A model generated the notes under the pieces. It did not search any database, was not told where the DNA came from, and was given only the letters and a program-made list of their open reading frames with translations. DNA of 64,000 bases, taken from assembly GCF_004358165.1 (NCBI RefSeq), contig NZ_SMTG01000002.1:62001-126000 (forward strand), written 5' to 3'. Source of the stretch: Luteimonas terrae. Lineage in GTDB: Bacteria > Pseudomonadota > Gammaproteobacteria > Xanthomonadales > Xanthomonadaceae. Below are positions 49,750-61,311 of the stretch, piece by piece (the first letter of the stretch is position 1; each line of letters opens with the position of its first letter). The position numbers were made by a program, and so were the translations under genes.

Positions 49750-50382
49750 TCAGTCGACGCGTGTGCCGAAGATCTTGTCGCCGGCGTCGCCGAGACCCGG
49801 CAGGATGTAGCCCTTCTCGTTGAGGCGCTCGTCGATCGAGGCGGTGTAGACCTCGACATCCGGATGCACCGCTTCCAGCGCCTGCAGGCCTTCCGGCGCC
49901 GCGACCAGAAACAGGCCCTTGATGCGGCTCGCGCCGGCGGCCTTGAGCATCGACACCGTGGCGATCAGCGTGCCGCCCGTGGCCAGCATCGGGTCGAGGA
50001 TGAGCGCGGTGCGGTCGGCCATGTCGCCGACGAGATTCTCGTAATAGGGCACCGCTTCGAGTGAGGCCTCGTCGCGCTTGATGCCGACCACGCTGACCTT
50101 CGCGGCGGGAATCATTTCCAGCACGCCCGGCAGCATGCCGATGCCGGCACGCAGGATCGGCACCAGCGTGATCTTGCGACCCTTGATGCGGCGCACGCGC
50201 ACCGTGCCGGCCCAGCCCTCGACGTCGGCGTCTTCGGTTTCCAGATCCGCCGTGGCCTCGTAGGTCAGCAGCGTCGCGACTTCGGCCGAGAGCTCGCGGA
50301 AGGTCTTGGTGCTGTTGTCGGCGCGGCGCATCAGGCCGAGCTTGTGCTGCACCAGCGGATGGCGGACTTCGATGGTCTTCAT
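49750..50382 (-). CDS. upp: Uracil phosphoribosyltransferase
   Basis: Pyrimidine salvage enzyme making UMP from uracil and PRPP. The 210 residues contain [17 protein letters not shown] at the start, [20 protein letters not shown], the PRPP loop [20 protein letters not shown], and the uracil-binding C-terminus [16 protein letters not shown]. Start at 50382 fits the family. A very long open frame continues upstream on this strand across the neighbouring receptor gene, but it is a GC-rich shadow. Divergent from the TonB-dependent receptor. Confidence 0.96.
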
Positions 50383-50466: not shown

Positions 50467-50484
50467 CTGTAATCGCAATGACAC
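50467..50484 (+). promoter_or_regulatory. Possible Pho-box-like site upstream of the phytase locus
   Basis: CTGTAAT-CGCA-ATGACAC resembles two 7-base PhoB half-sites (E. coli consensus CTGTCAT and CTGTCAC/T, four-base spacer): first half 6/7, second 5/7 by eye. It ends 54 bases before the receptor ATG. The spacer is not AT-rich as in E. coli. A separate inverted repeat CATTGC (50453-50458) / GCAATG (50475-50480) overlaps it, so another regulator could use the site. Confidence 0.35.
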
Positions 50485-50538
50485 GCGGTGGACATAGCGT
50501 ACGCACCCGACGTTCACCTCAACAACGCCGGAACTCTC

Positions 50539-53079
50539 ATGTCGAACCCCCATCCGCTGCACGCGGCGATCGCGCTCGTGCTGGCTGCAGGCGCCGTTTC
50601 GCTTCCGCTCCATGCCCAGACCCTCCCGCAGACGCCCGACGGCAGCACACTCGCCGATCCGGTGGATCTGGATACGCTGGAGGTGCGTGCACAGCTCGAA
50701 TCGCAGATGCGGGCGATCGATTTCAAGCGTGCGTCGGATGCGATCCAGGACACCGTGTCGTCCGACTCGATGGGCCAGTACCCGGACAAGAACGTCGGCG
50801 AGTCGCTGTCGCGTCTGCCGGGCATCAGCGTCACCCGCGACCAGGGCGAGGGCCGCTTCGTCGTCGTCCGCGGTCTGGATGCGGCCTTCAATAGCGTCAG
50901 CGTCGACGGCGTCGCCATCGGCACGCCCGAAGACGCCAGCCGTGCGGCGCCGCTGGACGTGATTCCGTCCGAATCCACCGAGCGGCTCACCGTGGTCAAG
51001 GCGCCGACGCCGGACATGCCAGGCGATGCCATCGGTGGCGCGATTCTGGTCGAGTCCGCGTCCGCATTCGATCGCGCGGGCCGCGACATCCGTGCCAAGG
51101 CCGAGATGAGCCACCAGAACCTCAGTGGCAAGACCAGCCCCAAGGCCGCGTTCAACTACAGCGACATCTTCGTTGACGGCACGTTCGGCGTGGCGCTGGG
51201 CCTCAGCCATCAGGATCGCGACTACGAGTCCGACAACATCGAAGTCGAGTACGACAAGGTGGACGAACGCGACGGCCTGACCCCGATCGAGATCCAGCAG
51301 CGCAAATACAGCATCAACCGCGAACGCACGGGCCTGAACCTCAATCTGGACTGGCGCCCGGGTGACGGCAACAGCTACTACCTGCGTACGCTGTACACCG
51401 ATTTCACCGATGCCGAGACCCGCCAGAACAGCATCATCCCGGTCGGCGAGGGTGACATCACGACGCATGCGGACGGCACCTACACCGTCGACGGCATCGA
51501 TCCGAACGACTTCAGCCGTCGGGTCCGCTTCCGGACCAAGCAGGAAGACACGTTCACCGTGAGCGCGGGCGGCGAGAACCGTTTCGGCGCCGGCTCGGCC
51601 GTCGACTACAAGCTGGGCTTCACCAAGACCCGCGAGCGCGTGCTCGATGAAGTCGAAGCGCGCTTCGAGTACGACGGCGCCGACGACGTGTCCATCGAGA
51701 TGGATACGTCGCGCCCGATTCCGCGCTACACGATCAGTGACAGCCCCGCAGGCGGCTGGCTGGACAACGACAACTACGAGTTCAACCGCTTCGTGGTGGC
51801 GCCGATCTGGGTCGACGACAAGGAGAACAGCGCGCAGGTGAACTTCACCTTCGCCGGTGACCTGATCACCTGGAAGACCGGTCTGCTGGGCCGTTGGCGC
51901 GACCGCGTCGTCGACATCGACGAGACCGAACTGCGGCGTGGCCCGGACATCAACCTGGGCAGCTGGACCACCAAAGCACCGGGCTACACGCACGGCAACA
52001 TGGGCGACGGCATCAGCTCGGCGGCGATGAACGCCTATCTGCGCGATCGCCTCGGCGACTACAGCGCGCGCCCGCAGGACGTGGCGGCCAACACCGAGGT
52101 CTCGCTGATCGAGGATTACACGGCCAGCGAAGACATTCTGGCGGGCTACCTGATGGCCACGATGGATTTCGACAGGCTGCGCGTCATCACCGGTGCCCGT
52201 GTCGAACGGACCGAATTCGAGGCGACGGGCAACGTGGTGGACCTCGAAGACGAGGAGACGATCGGCTCGATCTCTACCCGCAACGTCTCCAGCAGTTACA
52301 CCAGCGTCTTGCCGGGTCTGCACCTGCGCTACGACATGGACGACTGGGTGCTGCGTGGCGCCTACACGACCACCATTGCCCGTCCGTCGTTCGGCAGCAT
52401 CTCGCCGCGCACGCGGATCAACCGCGACGAGGAGGAGGTGCAGCTGGGCAACCCGGACCTCGATCCGTACACGTCGCGCAATTTCGACATTTCGATCGAG
52501 CGCTATCTGGGCGACACCGGCCTGGTGTCGGCCGGGCTGTTCTACAAGAACATCGACGATTACGTCGTCGACGTGACCACCCGCGACAACCCCGCCTATC
52601 AGGGCTTCGACGTGACCATGCCCGTCAACGGCGACAAGGCCACCGTCTACGGCGCGGAACTGAACTGGCAGCAGCATTTCGACAACGGCCTGCTGCTGGG
52701 CCTCAGCGGCACGTGGCTCGACACCGAGTACGAGATCAACGGCCGCAGTTTCACGCTGCCCAATGCATCGGAGCGTCTTTACAGCGCGCACATCGGCTAC
52801 GAGAAAGGGGGGCTGAGCACGCGTATCGCCGCCGTCCGTCGCAGCGAATACATCGACGAGGTGGACGCGAGCGACAGCGATTTCGACATCTGGGTCGCTG
52901 CCAACACTCAGCTCGACTTCAGCCTGGACTACAGGGTCAGCGACCAGTGGGGCCTCTACTTCGAGGCCTCCAACCTGCTCGACGAGCCACTGGAGCTGTA
53001 CCAGGGGTCGCCGGCCAACACGCTGCAGAACGAGCTCTACGGCCGTACTTACGTTGCAGGCGTGAAGCTGCGCTTCTGA
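50539..53079 (+). CDS. TonB-dependent receptor, phytase-locus type
   Basis: An 846-residue outer-membrane receptor. After a Sec signal (ending LPLHAQ, about residue 27) a [10 protein letters not shown] segment may be the TonB box. The plug includes [40 protein letters not shown] and [20 protein letters not shown], the pattern of the TIGR01782-type xanthomonad/caulobacter receptors. The barrel ends in GVKLRF, a terminal-Phe BamA signal. It is followed after 52 bp by a beta-propeller phytase and two further exported phosphatases, so the ligand is probably an inositol phosphate or related phospho-compound (inference). Confidence 0.9.
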
Positions 53080-53084
53080 TTGTC

Positions 53085-53113
53085 GCCGGCGGCACGCGAC
53101 GCGTCCCGCCGGC
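53085..53113 (+). other. Hairpin between receptor and phytase genes
   Basis: An 8-bp stem GCCGGCGG / CCGCCGGC with a 13-base loop sits in the 52-bp gap. It lacks a T-tract, so it could slow but not stop transcription, or protect the upstream mRNA and lower downstream expression. Confidence 0.45.
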
Positions 53114-53131
53114 ATTCCACCGAGGGTCCCC

Positions 53132-54286
53132 ATGCACACACATCGCTTTTTTCCCGTCGCCCTGCGCACATGCGCGCTGACGATCGCCATCACGCTCCCC
53201 GCCTGTGCCCGCACGCCCGACGCGCCAGCGACGCCCGCCGCGGACGCGTCGGCCGAGGCGCCCGCCGCCGGCACCGGGACGGCCCGTGCGCTGCCGGTCG
53301 TCGAAGAAGCCTTCGTCACCGCACTGACGCCCGACGACAACATCGATTCCCCAGCCGCATGGACCGCGCCCGATGGCGCGACCTGGGTCATCGCGACCGC
53401 AAAGGCCACCGATCGTCTGGTGATCTACGACGGCGCTACCGGTGAGACCCTGCGGACCTTCGGCACGCTCGGTACCGGCGAGGGCCAGTTCGACCGTCCC
53501 AACGGCGTGGCCGTGGTCGACGACCTGCTGTTCGTGGTCGAGCGCGACAACCACCGCGTGCAGGTGCTGCGCCTGCCGGACTTCACCCACGTCGCGACCT
53601 TCGCCGCCGACGCGCTGGTCAAGCCCTACGGCCTGTGGGTGCGCAAGGTCGACGACGGCTACACCGTCTACGTCACCGATTCCTACGACGACGGCGAAGA
53701 CGCGCAGGGCAACGACATCCTGCCCGCGCTGGACACGCTCGACCGTCGCGTGCACCGCTATGCGATGCGCACCGACGGCGCGGACTTCAGGATCGAAGCG
53801 CTGGGCACGTTCGGCGATGCGACCCCGGAAGGCGCACTGCGCGTGGTCGAGTCCATCTGGGGCGATGCCGACAACGATCGCCTGCTGATCGCCGAAGAGG
53901 ACGAGACCTACGCCAACGAACTGAAGGTCTACGACCTCGAAGGCCGCTTCACCGGCAAGACCATCGGCCGCGACGTGTTCGGCGCGCAGGCCGAGGGCAT
54001 CATGCTCAAGACCTGTAGTGGCGGCGCCGGCTGGTGGATCACCACCGAGCAGGGCAAGGGACAGACGGTGTTCCATCTGTTCGATCGCCAGTCGCTGGCG
54101 CATGCCGCTGCGGTGACCGGTCGCAAGGTCGCCAACACCGACGGCATCTGGCTGCACGACGTGCCGAGCACACGTTTCCCCGATGGGGTGCTCTACGCCG
54201 TACATGACGATCAGGGCGTGGTCGCGTTCGACTGGGCGCAGATCGCCAGGGCCGCGAATCTCCCCGCGTGCGAGCGTGGCGCATGA
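53132..54286 (+). CDS. Beta-propeller phytase lipoprotein
   Basis: A 384-residue exported protein. The signal ends in ITLPAC, so Cys25 is probably lipidated; an alanine/proline-rich linker runs to about residue 52. The rest follows the beta-propeller phytase order: [17 protein letters not shown] (67-82, cf. DDPAIW), [39 protein letters not shown] (245-264), [41 protein letters not shown] and [20 protein letters not shown]. Bacillus phytase has YIAEED, DTDGID and FVAQDG at equivalent places. These enzymes use calcium to cleave phosphate from phytate. Stop overlaps the next start (ATGA). Confidence 0.87.
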
Positions 54287-55686
54287 GGGCGCGTCCTACC
54301 CGCACGCGTGTGCGATCGCTGGTGCTGGGCCTGGGTGTCGCACTGCTCGCAGTGACAGGCGCCGCCAGTGCCGCCGGCGAGACGCGACCCGAGCCCAACA
54401 CGCTCGTGCCCGCCGGCGTGATGCGTTACGCCCCCAGCGTGTTCCCCGATCGCATCGTCGCCTCGCCTGCGCAGGACGCCGCCACCGGCTTCGGCGTGTC
54501 CTGGCGCACGGCAGCTTCGGTCGAGTCGCCGGTGCTGGAACTCGTCGTCGCCGGCGATTCGCCGGACATGGGCCCGCGTCGGCGTATCGCCGCGCGCAGC
54601 ACATCTTTCGAAGGCGAGAACGGCGCGGCGCAGTTCCATCGCGCCGATGTGGACGGCCTGCAGCCCGACACGCTGTATGCCTGGCGCGTGCAGGGCGGTG
54701 GCACCTGGAGCCCGTGGATGCAGACGCGCACCGCGGCGGCGGCCGATGCACCGCTGACACTGCTGTACTTCGGCGACACCCAGAACAAGAACGCCAGCCT
54801 GAGCACCCGCGTGTTGCGCGAAGCGCACCGGCATGCGCCCGACGCGAAGCTCGCGCTGTTCGCCGGCGATCTGGTCAGCGGCGGCGACGGCGAGGACGAC
54901 AACGAGTGGGGCGAGTGGTTCGACGCGGTTGGACCGCTGGCGACGATGGTCGTCAACGCGCCCGCGCCGGGCAACCACGAGTACTGGGAGGAGTTTGAGG
55001 ACACGCCGCAGGAGCGTCGTGTGCTCGGCGGTCACTGGCCGCGCACGTTCGCGCTGCCGGCCAATGGCGCGCCGGGCGCGGAGCAGACCAGCTACTGGTT
55101 CGACTACCAGGGCGTGCGCGTGGTCGTGCTCGACGGCACCTCGGCGCTCGATCTGGGCACGGCGCAGGCGCAGGCCGCGTGGCTCGACCGCACGCTGGCC
55201 GCCAATCCGCATGCCTGGTCGATCGCGCTGATCCACCAGCCCATGTACTCGCCGCGCCAGGACCGCGAGAACGTCGCCCTGCGCGAACACGTGCTGCCGG
55301 TGCTCGAACGGCGCCGCGTCGATCTGGTGCTGCAGGGACACGACCACGTCTACGGCCGTCGTGCCGGCGAGGACGCGACGCGAGCGACGCCGCTGTATCT
55401 GGTGTCGGTGGTCGGCGCCAAGCAGTACCGCCTGTCGGACGAGGCCCGCCGCGACATGGCGCCGACCGCCGAAGACACGCAGCTGTTCCAGGTCATTCGC
55501 CTCGACGGCGACACGCTGCGCTACGAATCGCGTACCGCGACCGGACGTCTCTACGATGCGTTCGAGATCCGCGGTGCAACGCCCGCGACGCGCACGCTGC
55601 ACGAGATCACCGAAGGTCGCATCGCCCCGCGCGACTGCACCCGCGCGCAGACCCTGAAAGGCCGCGCCGACCGGTGCTGGGAGTGA
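54283..55686 (+). CDS. Exported purple-acid-phosphatase-like metallophosphoesterase
   Basis: A 467-residue protein with a signal peptide (LVLGLGVALLAVTGAASA). Residues 50-150 form an FnIII-like domain (VSWRTAASVESPVLELVV, DGLQPDTLYAWRVQ) as in purple acid phosphatases. The dinuclear-metal site is intact: GDTQ (164-167), GDLV (195-198), GNHEYW (230-235), His318 in ALIHQPMY, and GHDHVYGR (352-359). Such enzymes hydrolyse phosphomonoesters. It is translationally coupled to the phytase gene, suggesting they act in sequence on inositol phosphates or other esters. Confidence 0.9.
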   Translation: MRARPTRTRVRSLVLGLGVALLAVTGAASAAGETRPEPNTLVPAGVMRYAPSVFPDRIVASPAQDAATGFGVSWRTAASVESPVLELVVAGDSPDMGPRRRIAARSTSFEGENGAAQFHRADVDGLQPDTLYAWRVQGGGTWSPWMQTRTAAAADAPLTLLYFGDTQNKNASLSTRVLREAHRHAPDAKLALFAGDLVSGGDGEDDNEWGEWFDAVGPLATMVVNAPAPGNHEYWEEFEDTPQERRVLGGHWPRTFALPANGAPGAEQTSYWFDYQGVRVVVLDGTSALDLGTAQAQAAWLDRTLAANPHAWSIALIHQPMYSPRQDRENVALREHVLPVLERRRVDLVLQGHDHVYGRRAGEDATRATPLYLVSVVGAKQYRLSDEARRDMAPTAEDTQLFQVIRLDGDTLRYESRTATGRLYDAFEIRGATPATRTLHEITEGRIAPRDCTRAQTLKGRADRCWE

Positions 55687-55691
55687 CGGCG

Positions 55692-56321
55692 ATGCGGAGT
55701 TCCAGGCGCCATACGCTGCACGCGATCGTGCTCGGCTGTCTGCTGCCGCTCGCGGCGCAGGCCGGGTCGCCGCCCGCGCACGACCGCCAGCCGGAGATCG
55801 AGCCGGCCGAGGCGACGCTGCTGGTCGAGATTCCGGCCGGCAGCTTCACCAAGTACGAGAGCGACGCCGATGGCCGCATCTTCGTCGACCGCTTCCTGTC
55901 GATGCCGATGGCCTATCCGGCGAACTACGGCTCGATGCCGGGCACGCACGCCGGCGACGGCGATCCGCTCGACGCCCTGGTGCTGACGCGCGCGCCGCTG
56001 CATCCCGGCGTGCGCATCCGCTTCCGCCCGCTGGGCGTGCTGCGCATGGTCGATGGCGGCGAACAGGACGAGAAGATCATCGGCGTGCCGGCCGACGCTG
56101 TGGATCCCACCTACGCCGGCATCCGCTCGATCGACGACCTGCCCGCGATGGAACGCGACCGGATCGAAGCTTTCTTCCGCGTCTACAAGGACCTGCCCGC
56201 CGGCGGCAAGCAGGTCCAACTGCGCGGGTGGGGTGGGGCGGACGAGGCGCAGGCCGTCATCCGGGCAGCGGTCGCTGCGTTCGACGCGCGGGCGTCAGTC
56301 GCAGCCGACGCCACGCGCTGA
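55692..56321 (+). CDS. Exported family I inorganic pyrophosphatase
   Basis: A 209-residue soluble-type pyrophosphatase with a Sec signal (LHAIVLGCLLPLAAQA), which is unusual because the family normally works in the cytosol. Active-site motifs are intact: FTKYESD, MAYPANYGSMPGT, the signature DGDPLD (89-94), a VLRMVDGGEQDEKIIG segment and FRVYKDLP. GTG 55683, overlapping the phosphatase stop, is an alternative start six bases before; ATG 55692 is used. As last gene of the locus it would turn PPi into two Pi in the periplasm. Confidence 0.88.
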   Translation: MRSSRRHTLHAIVLGCLLPLAAQAGSPPAHDRQPEIEPAEATLLVEIPAGSFTKYESDADGRIFVDRFLSMPMAYPANYGSMPGTHAGDGDPLDALVLTRAPLHPGVRIRFRPLGVLRMVDGGEQDEKIIGVPADAVDPTYAGIRSIDDLPAMERDRIEAFFRVYKDLPAGGKQVQLRGWGGADEAQAVIRAAVAAFDARASVAADATR

Positions 56322-56325
56322 CCGG

Positions 56326-57753
56326 TCAGCCGCCTGCCGCCTCGGCCTCGACGCGTGCTGCTTCGAGCGCTGCTTCGACCACCGGCCATGCAGCGGCCAG
56401 GTCGACCGCGGCACCGTCCTTCCACACTGCGACGACGTTGCGCGTCGCGCGGATGTCGGCCAGCGGATCGCCATCGACCACGAGCACGTCGGCGAGCGCG
56501 CCGGCATCGAGTCGGCCGAGCTGCGACTGGCCCAGGATGCTGGCGGCGACCACGGTCGCGGACTGGAGCGCCTGCACGGGGCTCAGTCCGGCACGCACCA
56601 GGGCTTCGAGTTCCTGGTGCAGGGCCGGGCCCGGCACGATGTAGGGCGCGGCAGGCACATCGGAGCCGGCGCCGATCGGCACACCCGCCGCATGCAGGCG
56701 CGGCAGCAGCGCGTCGAGCAGGCGCTGGTCGGCGCGCGCGCGGGCATGCGCGGCCGGGGACGCGAGCACGCCGGCCAGATGCGACCAGTACCCTTCGAAG
56801 TGCGGCGCGATGCGCCCGGCGCCGGGCAGACCATCACGTTCGAGGCTGTCGGGCGAGAAGAACTGGGCCGTGTTGCCGGCCGTCGGCACGACCGCGACTC
56901 CGCTGGCGGCGAGATCGGCGACGATCCGATCGAGGTGTGCGTCGTCCAGCGTGTCGGCCATCGGATCGCCGCCGAGCCTCGCATAGGAGAGCGCCGCGCC
57001 GCCGATGTGCTCGAGCGTGGTCACGCCGGCCGCTGCCGCCTGCCGTGCATCGACATCCGCGCCGGAAAGTCCGCGCGTGACCACCAGCCCCAGGTCGCTC
57101 ATCACCGGCAGGCCATGACGCGCGGCCGCCGCCACCGCGGCATCGAACACCACTGGCGGCAGTTGCTCGTAGAGCTTGATCCAGTCCACGCCGTGCTCGG
57201 CGAGGGCTGCAATTGCGGCGTCGGCCTCGGCGGCGCTGGCCACCGTCAGCGATGGCTGCGCGCCGAGTGTTTCGACATCCAGCGGTCGCGGACCGTCGGG
57301 TGTCATCACGCTGTCGGGTCCGTCGATCAACGGCCCGGCGGCGAAGATGCGCGGCGCGCCGGGCATTGCGCGCATCTGCGCGATGTTGTCGAGTGTGTTG
57401 CCTGCATCGCGGACAGTGGTGACACCGGCGGGTACGAATGCGCCGATGTAATGCGGGCGCGCATGGACGTGCAGATCGATCAAGCCCGGCAGCAGCAGCG
57501 CGTCGCCATAGTCGTGGCGCGCGTCCGCGTCCCGCCAGCTGCAGGCATCACGTTCGCCGGCGCAACGTACGCGCTCGCCTGCGATCACCACCACGCCGCG
57601 TTCGATGACGGTGCCGGCGCCCGCGTCGAACAGTCGACCGAACAGGACAGCGTCGGCGGATGGGCCGGTCGGCGGCGAGGCGGTCTCACTGCCACAGGCG
57701 GACACCAGAAGCGCTGCGCACGACAGCGCGAAAACACCGGAACGTCGAAGCAT
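56326..57753 (-). CDS. Amidohydrolase lipoprotein
   Basis: A 475-residue metal-dependent hydrolase. The N-terminus is a lipoprotein signal with LLVSAC (Cys20). The amidohydrolase fold shows GLIDLHVHARPH (metal His95 and His97), VDWIKLYEQLP with the likely carboxylated lysine, TTLEHIGGAALSY, and GVPIGAGSDVP with the final metal aspartate; ILGQSQLGRLDAGALADVLV is the closing strand of imidazolonepropionase-like members. Substrate unknown; peptides or cyclic amides are possible. It is convergent with the pyrophosphatase gene, five bases apart, and probably independent of the phosphate locus. Confidence 0.87.
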   Translation of the reverse strand: MLRRSGVFALSCAALLVSACGSETASPPTGPSADAVLFGRLFDAGAGTVIERGVVVIAGERVRCAGERDACSWRDADARHDYGDALLLPGLIDLHVHARPHYIGAFVPAGVTTVRDAGNTLDNIAQMRAMPGAPRIFAAGPLIDGPDSVMTPDGPRPLDVETLGAQPSLTVASAAEADAAIAALAEHGVDWIKLYEQLPPVVFDAAVAAAARHGLPVMSDLGLVVTRGLSGADVDARQAAAAGVTTLEHIGGAALSYARLGGDPMADTLDDAHLDRIVADLAASGVAVVPTAGNTAQFFSPDSLERDGLPGAGRIAPHFEGYWSHLAGVLASPAAHARARADQRLLDALLPRLHAAGVPIGAGSDVPAAPYIVPGPALHQELEALVRAGLSPVQALQSATVVAASILGQSQLGRLDAGALADVLVVDGDPLADIRATRNVVAVWKDGAAVDLAAAWPVVEAALEAARVEAEAAGG

Positions 57754-57887
57754 CGGCAACACATCCTCCATGGAATGCGCGGAGGGCCGACTGTGATCAG
57801 GTCGTTCCAGGCACGATGCGCGACATCAACCGCGGCTGCGCCCGGGCGGACGCAGACCGGGGTCGGCCGCGCGGGCCGCAGACCTTA

Positions 57888-59384
57888 TCAGGCTGCGGCG
57901 GCGTCCGACAGGCGCGGACCTTCGCGCAACGCCTTGCCCACCATCGCCACCATCAAGGCGATCTCGTCGTCGCCGATCTCGAAGTGCGGGGTGAAGCGCA
58001 GCGAGTTTGCGCCGCCGTGGATCACGCCCAGGCCCTGTTCGCGCAGCCACTCCTCGGTCGAGCCCGCGCCGTAGCACTTGAACTGCGGCGCGAGTTCGCA
58101 GGAGAACAGCAGGCCGGTGCCCTGAACCTTGGTGATCAGGCCGCCGAGTTCGGCCTTCAGCGCTTCGAGCGCCTCGACCGACTTGCGCCCCGCGTCGCGG
58201 ATGTTCGCGCGCACCTCGGGCGTGAGCTGGCCGAGCACCGCGCAGGCGACTTCGAGCGCACGCGGGTTGGCGGTCATCGTGTTGCCGTAGACGCCGCTCT
58301 TGTACAGCTGCGCCGCATGCTCGCTGACCGCGAGCACCGACAGCGGGTACTGGCCGGCGTTGAGCGCCTTGGAATAGGTCTCCATGTCCGGCGCGTCGAG
58401 GCCTTCGAACCCGGGATAGTCGACGACCGACAGCACGCCGTGCGCGCGCAGGCCGGCCTGGATCGAATCCACCAGCAGCAGGCTGCCGTGTGCGCGGGTG
58501 AGTTCGCGGGCGACGGCGTAGAACGCCGGCGGCAACGCGCGGCCGGGATCGCCTTCGCCCATCACCGGCTCCAGGAACACCGCCTCGACGAACCAGCCGT
58601 TGGCATCGGCGTCGGCGAAGGCCTGGCGCAGGGCGTCGGCGTCGTAGGGCGCGATCGCGATCAACGAGTTCTCGTCGCGGAAGCTGGCGAGGTACTTCTT
58701 GTAGGTCGCGCGCGAGGAATCGGAGTACAGCGCCGGGCGCTCGGTGCGGCCATGGAAGCTGCCCTTGACCACAATGCGCTTGACCGTGCGGCCGGCGTGG
58801 CGGCCACCCGGATCGGTCTGGGTGCGGGTGTTGATGTCGGCGATGCGCGCGGCCAGGCCGACCGACTCCGAACCGGAATTGAGGCACAGGAAGTGGCTGA
58901 AGGGACAGCCGCCGCGGGTGTGGCCGATCTCGCGGCGCAGGGCGCGCTCGAGCTTCAGCTGCGAAATGCTCGGCGTCATGATGTTGGCCATCGGCACCGG
59001 CTGCGCCATCGCCTCGATCACCGCCTTGGGCGTGTGGCCGAAACCGAGCATGCCGTAGCCGCCGGAATCGTGGAGCACGGCGCCCTTGAGCGTGACGATC
59101 CACGGACCGCGCGCGACCAGCGCGACGTACGGGTTCACCGCATCGCCGGGATAGAAGTTCACGTAGCCGGCCTGCACGGCGCGGGCCTGCGCGTCCTCGT
59201 CGAGATCCAGCAGATCGGCGAAGTCCTGCGTCAGCGCAGCGTGCGCCTCGACGGCGGCATGCGCGGCCTCGACCAGTTCGGGGTGCGTCGCGGCGAAGCG
59301 TTCCAGCACGTCGTCGGCCAGGCCGGTGGTGCGGCGTGCGCCGCCGTGGGCGCGCAGCGGGGCGAGGATCTGGGATACGGACAT
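57888..59384 (-). CDS. Class III PLP-dependent aminotransferase
   Basis: A 498-residue aminotransferase. PLP phosphate-binding is in FLCLNSGSESVGLAARIADI, the PLP ring aspartate is Asp306 in LLLVDSIQAGLRAHG, and Lys339 in METYSKALNAGQYPLSV forms the Schiff base. The usual DEVQTG motif reads DSIQAG here, a divergent form. Family members act on ornithine, lysine, GABA or similar amines; the actual substrate cannot be told. It is divergent from an Lrp/AsnC regulator with a palindrome between, suggesting amino-acid-responsive control. ATG 59384 is preferred over 59393. Confidence 0.87.
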   Translation of the reverse strand: MSVSQILAPLRAHGGARRTTGLADDVLERFAATHPELVEAAHAAVEAHAALTQDFADLLDLDEDAQARAVQAGYVNFYPGDAVNPYVALVARGPWIVTLKGAVLHDSGGYGMLGFGHTPKAVIEAMAQPVPMANIMTPSISQLKLERALRREIGHTRGGCPFSHFLCLNSGSESVGLAARIADINTRTQTDPGGRHAGRTVKRIVVKGSFHGRTERPALYSDSSRATYKKYLASFRDENSLIAIAPYDADALRQAFADADANGWFVEAVFLEPVMGEGDPGRALPPAFYAVARELTRAHGSLLLVDSIQAGLRAHGVLSVVDYPGFEGLDAPDMETYSKALNAGQYPLSVLAVSEHAAQLYKSGVYGNTMTANPRALEVACAVLGQLTPEVRANIRDAGRKSVEALEALKAELGGLITKVQGTGLLFSCELAPQFKCYGAGSTEEWLREQGLGVIHGGANSLRFTPHFEIGDDEIALMVAMVGKALREGPRLSDAAAA

Positions 59385-59513
59385 GCGAAACACTCCTGGC
59401 GACGTCGTGGAGGGACCTGGCCCGGGGCGCGCGGTGCGCGGCGCTCGGCGGTCTTTCCATTATCTGGACGATTCCGTCGGACGATAGCGACGATCTGCCG
59501 AGGTGCCGATAGA

Positions 59514-59545: not shown

Positions 59546-59977
59546 ATGTCCATCGAATCCGCCGACGTCCGTCTGCTCAACCTGCTGCGCGAGAACGCCC
59601 GCCTGTCCACAGCCGAGATCGCCCGGCGGCTGGGCCTGTCGCGCACCACGGTGCAGAGCCGCATCGAGCGGCTGGAGCGCGAAGGCGTGATCGGCGGCTA
59701 CACGGTGCGGGTGCGCGACGACTTCGAGCAGGGCCACATCCGCGCCCACATCATGATCACCGTGCGCCCGCGCCAGACCACGCCGGTGGTGACCGCGCTG
59801 CGCGCGATCGACGCGGTGCGCTCGCTGCATTCGGTCAGCGGCCCGTACGACCTGATCGCGCTGGGCGTGGTGCCGACGGTCGCCGCCATGGATGCGCTGA
59901 CCGACCGGATCGGCTGCATCGAGGGCGTGGAGCGGACGACGTCGTCAATCATTCTTTCGACAAAATTCGAGCGGTAG
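59546..59977 (+). CDS. Lrp/AsnC family transcriptional regulator
   Basis: A 143-residue regulator. The N-terminal helix-turn-helix covers DVRLLNLLRENARLSTAEIA and RRLGLSRTTVQSRIERLERE; the C-terminal RAM ligand domain has IRAHIMITVRPRQTTPVVTA and HSVSGPYDLIALGVVPTVAA, with the GxxD effector loop. It is a normal-size feast/famine regulator that probably senses an amino acid and controls the divergent aminotransferase and itself through the palindrome just upstream. Confidence 0.93.
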   Translation: MSIESADVRLLNLLRENARLSTAEIARRLGLSRTTVQSRIERLEREGVIGGYTVRVRDDFEQGHIRAHIMITVRPRQTTPVVTALRAIDAVRSLHSVSGPYDLIALGVVPTVAAMDALTDRIGCIEGVERTTSSIILSTKFER

Positions 59978-60004: not shown

Positions 60005-60170
60005 CCCTCCCCCGCAAGCGGGGGAGGGTTGGGTGGGGGCGAGCGGCCCGATCGCGGTATCCACGCCCCGCGCAGGCCCGCGGGTGAAAGCAGCGCGTGA
60101 TCGAGGAAGGTCGGGACGGTCGGTTCGCCCCCATCCCGGCCTTCCGCCGCGCGTGGGGGAAGGCGCGGAT
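60005..60170. repeat. Inverted pair of GC-rich hairpin repeats
   Basis: The 293-bp gap between the Lrp gene and queA has two related units facing each other. Unit A (60005-60055) begins with CCCTCCCCCGC / GCGGGGGAGGG and a two-base loop, then TTGGGTGGGGGCGAGCGG. Unit B, read on the minus strand from about 60165 to 60115, has a GCCTTCC...GGAAGGC stem (60139-60145 / 60158-60164) then CCGGGATGGGGGCGAAC. A degraded copy lies near 9960. No gene is seen in this gap. Confidence 0.75.
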
Positions 60171-60270
60171 CGCGTCGCCTGCGAGTTCCGCAGAGACTCG
60201 GGGGTGCATGCAACGGGGCGGCAGGACACGCCTTCATTACAATGTCCGCCCGCAAACCCCCGTCCGACCC

Positions 60271-61311
60271 TTGAAGAAGTCCGACTTCCATTTCGACCTG
60301 CCCGAACACCTGATCGCCCAGGCCCCGCTGGCCGAGCGTTCGGCGAGCCGGCTGCTGGTCGTGCCGCCGGGGCAGGGCAGCTTCGACGATCGCCAGGTCC
60401 GTGACCTGCCGGATCTGCTGCAGCCGGGCGACCTGCTGATCTTCAACGACACGCGGGTGATCCCCGCCCGCTTGTTCGGCCAGAAGGACAGCGGCGGGCG
60501 CGTGGAAATCCTGATCGAGCGGCTGCTGCCGGACAACGAGGCGCGGGCGCAGATCGGTGCCAGCAAATCGCCCAGGCCCGGCGGACGCATCCAGCTCGAT
60601 GCCGGCGGCAGCGCCGAGGTGATCTCGCGCGACGAGGGCTTCTATCACCTGCGCTTCGAGCTCGACGACACGCTCGAATCCTGGCTGCTCAAGGCCGGGC
60701 GCATGCCGTTGCCGCCCTACATCCGCCGCGAACCGGGGCAGGACGACGCCGAGCGCTACCAGACCGTGTTCGCGCGCGAGGTCGGCGCGGTCGCCGCGCC
60801 CACCGCCGGCCTGCATTTCGACGACGCGCTGCTGGCGCGCCTGCGCGAGCGCGGCGTGCAGTTCGGTCACGTCACGCTGCATGTCGGCGCGGGCACCTTC
60901 CTGCCCATGCGCGTCGAGGACGTGCGCGAGCACCGCATGCACAGCGAGTGGCTCAATGTCGGCGCCGAACTCGTCGCGCAGATCCGCCGCACGCGAGAGG
61001 CGGGCGGTCGCGTGATCGCGGTCGGCACCACGGTCGTGCGTGCGCTGGAGAGCGCCAGCGTCGACGGCGAACTGCATCCCTTCGCCGGCGAGACGCAGAT
61101 CTTCATCTTCCCCGGCTACCGCATCCGCAGCGTCGACGCGATGGTGACCAACTTCCATCTGTCCGAATCCACGCTGCTGATGCTGGTCTCGGCCTTCGCC
61201 GGCAAGGACCGCGTGTTCGCGGCCTACGACCATGCCGTGCAGGCGGAATACCGCTTCTTCTCCTATGGCGACGCGATGCTGCTGTGGGGCGCGCACGCGC
61301 CCGCCGCCTGA
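60271..61311 (+). CDS. queA: S-adenosylmethionine:tRNA ribosyltransferase-isomerase
   Basis: Makes epoxyqueuosine in tRNA from the preQ1 base inserted by Tgt. The 346 residues start [19 protein letters not shown] and include [78 protein letters not shown] and [20 protein letters not shown], all conserved. The start is TTG 60271, the only suitable codon before the conserved first strand. It is followed by tgt after 25 bp, the classic queA-tgt-yajC-secD order. Confidence 0.95.

Follow-up and report, generated by a model that had tools for sequence, protein, structure and literature searches.

What does a bacterium gain by placing a TonB-dependent receptor gene directly before genes for three putative phosphohydrolases? 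We addressed this question in a 64,000-nucleotide stretch of the Luteimonas terrae genome, hereafter called the window. The answer that we consider fairly probable is a phosphate-starvation locus, which would feed the cell from external organic and condensed phosphates and would be built as a mix-and-match slot.

Gene organization of the locus

The open reading frames of the window and their translations place four plus-strand genes side by side: a TonB-dependent receptor of type Ta (50539..53079), a predicted lipoprotein with a six-bladed beta-propeller (N, 53132..54286), a PAP-like metallophosphoesterase predicted to be exported (P, 54283..55686) and a putatively exported family I inorganic pyrophosphatase (I, 55692..56321). 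A preliminary description of this DNA had proposed four such consecutive genes, the last three joined by an ATGA overlap and a 5-base gap, and this was what we found: N and P share the ATGA at 54283–54286, P and I are separated by 5 bases (55687–55691), and receptor and N are spaced by 52 bases. The export signal that had been assigned to each gene agrees with the export-like N-termini that we recognized by eye in all four proteins. The proposed left end, 50467, had to be moved as a gene start, since the receptor begins at the ATG at 50539, common to the six sequences aligned, and positions 50467–50484 hold a PhoB-box-like site that ends 54 bases 5' of this ATG.

Outside the unit, the left neighbor is upp (uracil phosphoribosyltransferase; 49750..50382, minus strand), which scores 267 bits against the TIGR01091 cut-off of 208, and the right marker is an aminotransferase-like gene (AAT; 57888..59393, minus strand), assigned by kinship with scores below the cut-offs. 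AAT is followed by two further plus-strand genes outside the unit, presumably an Lrp-like gene (59546–59977) and queA (60097–61311). An amidohydrolase-like gene with a lipoprotein-like start, as judged by eye, lies next to the unit (56326–57771); at E 1e-10, L082 and L287 were the only ones of the 144 loci in which it recurred.

Conservation of the four-gene unit

We searched genomes of the same bacterial family for the same arrangement, as had been suggested, and found that N has receptor, P and I as neighbors in 60 of the 80 named loci, mainly of Stenotrophomonas, Luteimonas and Pseudoxanthomonas. These 80 loci are the top-ranking ones of 392 matches to N, and Stenotrophomonas is heavily represented among them. 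The complete set was also present in 8 of 20 hand-chosen loci (L034–L053) and in 7 of 40 lower-ranking loci (L247–L286, which comprise 39 rows, every second one below rank 30, plus G146, with one row's stretch already taken). The order varied in a few cases, with I before P in L087, P before N in L124 and two P genes in L083. The latter form a tandem pair (L083:9047-11801) between N and I at a locus with receptor Tb, and are 76% and 61% identical to the P of the window. P is apparently interrupted, in two pieces, in L270 (G092) and at G192:C103:9778-11152.

A 4-base overlap of N and P was possible in 47 of the 61 named loci with P after N, a count favoring small gaps because P starts were taken nearest to the N stop. 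Close P homologues (E <=1e-60) were present in 46 of 198 family genomes, and in 42 of these 46 they adjoin an N homologue, as compared by eye. In G194, G130, G057 and G065, P lies beside receptor Tb, in three of the four together with I, and no N was found within 16 kb. A chance neighborhood of the four genes was rejected on the basis of the N–P overlap and the adjacency of P and N. The possibility raised in the preliminary description, that the homologues never co-occur in related genomes, is excluded by their co-occurrence at many loci, and its proposal of a TonB receptor and phosphate-releasing enzymes as one unit is borne out by the conserved neighborhood. We concluded that the four genes form one conserved unit whose enzymes are probably exported.

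A Stenotrophomonas-like Ta-N-P-I locus with its flanks also occurs in L132, a record titled Bacillus subtilis subsp. subtilis SK7B5; this assembly is perhaps contaminated or mislabelled.

N is a divergent relative of beta-propeller phytases

The preliminary description had named the second gene a phytase. No PF02333 match was found in the genome of the window, and N (P0002) gave none up to E 1. Beta-propeller phytase signatures have been described as DA[ATE]DDPA[ILV]W and NN[VI]D[ILV]R in the portion of the source available (PMC4017775). N of the window misses both, with DNIDSPAAW and PNGVAV instead. In another genus of the same family, N homologues exceeded the PF02333 cut-off of 21 bits in 31 of 35 genomes, with 24.4–33.7 bits over profile positions 205–330 at most, and all 31 places fall inside N genes. 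The N homologue of L295, 52% identical to P0002, reached 36.8 bits; L034, L019 and L099 (17.2 bits for L099) did not reach the cut-off.

An alignment of N from 29 of 30 loci (A1, with L002 left out for an internal stop) was compared by hhalign with 22 PF02333 proteins (A3, from 31 PF02333 loci retrieved, of which incomplete ones and those with stops were omitted), giving a probability of 99.1% and an E-value of 1.3e-18. The N profile reached 3.0% against the SGL propeller family, the single family tried, and we therefore rejected the idea that the phytase match reflects nothing more than general propeller kinship. A structure model of N (pLDDT 87.2) predicts a six-bladed propeller with a phytase-like fold, and its best structural alignments were to the solved phytases 1poo, 1qlg and 3amr. 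Foldseek placed one NHL domain (2.4e-12) slightly ahead of the best phytase (2.9e-12), and a sequence search of the PDB with N returned NHL-repeat proteins and weak cadherin matches, with phytases absent.

At the residue level, K51, R97, Y128, E195, E196, E231, Q250 and D287 (A3 numbering), which we take to be catalytic in phytases, are unchanged in all 104 aligned N sequences, a set that counts some genomes more than once. Phytase columns D31, N75 and D229 are replaced in N by invariant Ser, Gly and Gln, D77 by Ala, Ser or Phe, and the QN-K end is not conserved. Hydrolysis of Ca-phytate may thus be lost or changed in N. By profile, structural alignment and homologues, N is a divergent relative or subfamily of the beta-propeller phytases and not a textbook phytase, so that of the earlier label the kinship stands, and membership as defined by PF02333 and the signatures does not; of the conserved catalytic and metal columns, many are unchanged and several replaced or lost.

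N begins like a lipoprotein, with Cys25 and an unusual Pro at position -2, and a permissive lipobox pattern of our own making fits 69 of 75 N homologues. SusD- and BtuG-type lipoproteins cap their receptors, and N could likewise be a non-enzymatic, ligand-binding surface lipoprotein that caps the receptor and leaves hydrolysis to P and I. The lipoprotein-like N-terminus, the lost phytase columns and the many loci that carry N beside a TonB receptor without P or I all fit such a cap; the presumed catalytic columns, kept in every aligned N sequence, do not, and we regard this role as unlikely.

Full-length relatives of N were found only in its own bacterial family in our class and phylum samples. 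N profile matches in other families cover at most 109 of 367 positions, and one of them, in G456, corresponds to the C-terminal portion of a true PF02333 phytase. A plasmid search gave a single weak match, annotated as a peptidase. The genome of the window carries a second N-type gene (G000:C5:1590771-1591874; L034:7748-8884), 49% identical and with a lipoprotein-like start; no match to receptor, P or I was found in the 17 kb around it. G010, a genome of the same bacterial family, encodes, besides N, a two-domain PF02333 phytase in a 767-residue frame (G010:C33:241367-243403; L032, L033).

The receptor, P and I

The receptor scores 637 bits against the curated TIGR01782 cut-off of 310 and is thus a member of this subfamily, with Pfam matches to Plug and TonB_dep_Rec_b-barrel. 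The SusD family was absent from the Pfam matches of the four proteins, which sets the unit apart from PusCD-type pairs.

P matches PF00149 and the PAP N-terminal domain PF16656, and plant purple acid phosphatases are its best sequence matches among solved structures. Purple acid phosphatases bind metal through seven ligands, including the tyrosine of GDxxY. Six of these positions are kept in all 63 P sequences (P0003 and 62 homologues from the named loci), and the tyrosine position, in the register of the alignment to the solved structures, holds Ser in 62 and Asn in one. The earlier label of a purple acid phosphatase-like enzyme thus needs correction: the tyrosine behind 'purple' is absent, and the name purple acid phosphatase is not appropriate for P.

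I matches PF00719 with 162.5 bits, and 15 positions that we take to be the active site of family I pyrophosphatases are each kept in at least 65 of 67 sequences. These features, along with an export-like N-terminus recognized by eye, uphold the proposed exported pyrophosphatase. A second family I gene lies elsewhere in the genome of the window, so I is an additional copy.

The cascade from phytate to free phosphate that had been suggested for these enzymes is plausible. Phytate alone does not explain the pyrophosphatase, because plain phytate hydrolysis yields no pyrophosphate. The locus might instead scavenge nucleotides, nucleic-acid or other phosphate esters and pyrophosphate, with N acting on another phosphoester than inositol phosphates. 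A pyrophosphatase suits nucleotide breakdown better than phytate, and the altered putative metal ligands of N are in line with another substrate; on the other hand, the nearest characterized relatives of N by profile and structural alignment are phytases, and PhyA of Xanthomonas oryzae, possibly a counterpart of N, is reported to support growth on phytate (PMC5735085, PMC9403785). We therefore hold this alternative to be possible and rather doubtful.

A PhoB-box-like site precedes the unit

The site CTGTAATCGCAATGACAC (50467..50484, plus strand) scored 9.1 bits with a PhoB matrix that we built from Escherichia coli sites. It exceeded 20 of 20 shuffles of its own region and is one of two sites of at least 9 bits in the 64-kb window; a similar sequence occurs at the same place in L082 and L152. 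Across loci, regions before the operon scored on average 7.3 bits above their own shuffles, compared with -0.36 for control regions, and none of 60 column-permuted matrices reached 7.3 bits (best 2.0). All 20 shuffles were exceeded by 21 of 63 regions for Ta, 18 of 26 for Tb/Tc and 9 of 14 for Te, and by 1 of 45 control regions, where many regions come from near relatives and the counts are not independent. The permuted matrices and control regions led us to reject a general promoter-composition effect behind this signal. One gene in the genome exceeded the PhoB cut-off, and the strongest site in the surrounding 20 kb ends 35 bases before this match; since it directly precedes the PhoB match, the E. 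coli-based matrix is supported in this organism. No sigma-70-like promoter was found before the operon. PhoB control of the operon is thus predicted from a sequence match.

TonB receptors classically import metal chelates and phytate binds metals strongly, so the receptor might import a chelate of iron or another metal, with the enzymes stripping or using the chelator and metal supply rather than phosphate as the point of the locus. Both the enrichment of PhoB-box-like sites before the operon and the presence of three phosphohydrolases in one unit argue for phosphate, and we consider metal supply very unlikely.

Different receptors occupy one genomic address

At least one of the six genes flanking the window unit was found in 104 of 144 loci. 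The order at this address is GGT (plus), upp (minus), the cassette, aminotransferase (minus), lrp (plus) and queA (plus), where GGT, Lrp and queA are names that we presume. After removal of duplicates, upp or the aminotransferase lies beside 93 of 129 distinct loci, with loci whose flanks were not reached counted as not at the address. The 93 address loci carry receptors of type Ta (63), Tc (13), Tb (12) and Te (5), and enzyme sets NPI (68), N (9), NP (8), NI (5), PI (2) and P (1). The remaining 36 distinct loci were not placed there; in 32 of them N occurs with neither P nor I, and 14 of the 36 are N orphans with no receptor, P or I match nearby. Since Tc and Te receptors are 57–59% alike in the loci shown, the four labels amount to three deep classes.

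Near relatives whose upp, aminotransferase and lrp proteins are 85–97% identical differ in their receptors: Ta in L082, Tb in L083 and L287, and Tc in L099. A quick tree was built from four flanking proteins in 47 rows, for which a locus needed upp, the aminotransferase and one more flank gene, and from which twins were omitted. On it, the receptor label required 12 changes, compared with a minimum of 3 and a shuffled mean of 22.1; the label of L270 was set to Ta by hand in this tree, and the flanks themselves may recombine. The starred branches of the tree force at least 6 changes each for Ta and Tc, 5 for Tb and 1 for Te. The L270 receptor is in two pieces, apparently an interrupted copy, and its upstream piece matches Td at 45%.

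The receptor DNA of the window is 83–90% identical to that of Pseudoxanthomonas sp. PXM01 (bins 50901–52701) and 84–87% identical to that of the near relative L082. For two upp bins, the identities are 85 and 69% to PXM01 and 94 and 93% to L082, and the N bins are 72–80% identical to PXM01. At the protein level, upp is 74% identical in the Luteimonas locus L091 and 73% in PXM01, and the receptor 64% in L091 and 89% in PXM01. High receptor identity despite divergence of upp suggests that the receptor gene moved between genera, and selection on the receptor could have contributed.

The receptor types could alternatively descend from an ancestral multi-receptor cluster by differential loss rather than replacement, which would agree with the clustering of labels on the flank tree (fewer changes than in shuffles). 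No second receptor type lies within 1.5 kb of the enzymes in any of the 93 distinct address loci, the extra upstream piece in L270 is read as part of one receptor, and the receptor DNA of the window is closer to PXM01 than upp and N would suggest; all three count against differential loss, which we judge quite improbable. Three deeply different receptor classes have apparently replaced one another repeatedly at one address.

At siderophore-receptor loci, exchange is driven by ligand competition or by receptor-targeting phages and bacteriocins. We give about an even chance to a comparable reading here, that one PhoB-controlled slot is a receptor-exchange locus for organic phosphate, in which receptors would be swapped between upp and aminotransferase-lrp-queA by recombination and inter-genus transfer, the phosphohydrolases would stay or be reshuffled, ligand competition or receptor-using phages or bacteriocins would be the driver, and N would represent a lipoprotein phytase specific to this lineage, its metal chemistry altered.

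Discussion

For the phosphate-starvation locus favored here, we infer the export of the proteins, their ligand and substrates, the sequence of their action, the position of N and the induction of the operon as follows. Low phosphate would let PhoB turn the operon on, as predicted from the site. The receptor would carry a bulky phosphorylated ligand across the outer membrane, in this genomic context most likely a compound akin to inositol phosphate, free or complexed with metal. The membrane-held lipoprotein N would cleave phosphates from the ligand at the surface or in the periplasm, as its kinship and kept catalytic columns suggest; by family and active site, P would remove further phosphomonoesters and I would split pyrophosphate, and the freed phosphate would enter by the usual transporters. 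Genome comparison suggests a slot whose N/P/I set varies and whose receptor has been exchanged repeatedly at one address. Several observations count against this reading: the missing PF02333 match of N, its replaced phytase columns, the NHL domain that Foldseek ranked ahead of the best phytase, the many loci outside the address with N and neither P nor I, the small share of complete sets among the lower-ranking loci, the four loci with receptor and P where N was not found, and the sigma-70-like promoter that was looked for and not found.

Known families come close to N, P and I. N is like the beta-propeller phytases (PF02333; 1poo, 1qlg, 3amr) in predicted fold and in most near-universal columns, and differs from them in Pfam model, signatures, lost columns, lipoprotein-like start and its restriction to one family in the class and phylum samples. 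P shares six metal ligands and the PAP N-terminal domain with purple acid phosphatases and lacks their tyrosine ligand, and I has the kept active site of family I pyrophosphatases together with an export-like N-terminus. Xanthomonas oryzae belongs to the same bacterial family as the window organism. Its PhyA, a secreted putative phytase (PMC5735085, PMC9403785), is possibly the counterpart of N in that genus. Other papers report that a phytase-annotated gene and pst genes go up jointly in a mutant of Xanthomonas perforans (PMC10782981), that 212 of 213 Stenotrophomonas genomes carry a phyA-annotated phytase (PMC11138164) and that phytase genes occur in all Stenotrophomonas genomes of another study (PMC7404187). 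The word phytase is absent from the accessible portion of a paper on TonB receptors of Xanthomonas (PMC1790865).

Phosphate-responsive pairing of a phytase with a TonB transporter has been reported in Flavobacterium johnsoniae, where phosphate depletion raises both a PF02333 phytase and the transporter with which it is listed (PMC8115612). The phosphate-depletion TonB/SusCD ('Pus') loci and this phytase-transporter pair resemble the window unit in combining a TonB transporter with exported phosphatases or phytase and in responding to phosphate, a response that is predicted for the window unit; they belong to another phylum and have other enzymes, whereas the window unit is without SusD and has a putatively exported pyrophosphatase and receptor exchange. 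The PhoB regulon of Caulobacter crescentus is likewise reported, in the part of the source at hand, to include TonB receptors, a phytase, a nucleotide pyrophosphatase and phosphatases (PMC11208175), which are the same kinds of function under PhoB, but as a regulon and not as one operon with this gene set. Among the best matches listed in the open-licence PMC literature, we recognized none that describes the four-gene unit, N as a subfamily of its own or an exchange of receptors at this address.

In many soils and waters growth is limited by phosphate, of which phytate is a major locked-up reserve. N-type matches at E 0.001 were found in 159 of 198 family genomes, some of them weak, and PF02333 finds none in the genome of the window; if N is a phytase, counts based on Pfam can miss such genes. 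In addition, a fixed slot with interchangeable receptors provides natural replacement pairs in near relatives with a similar enzyme background, so that receptor specificity for phosphorus compounds, apparently a poorly understood property, may become testable.
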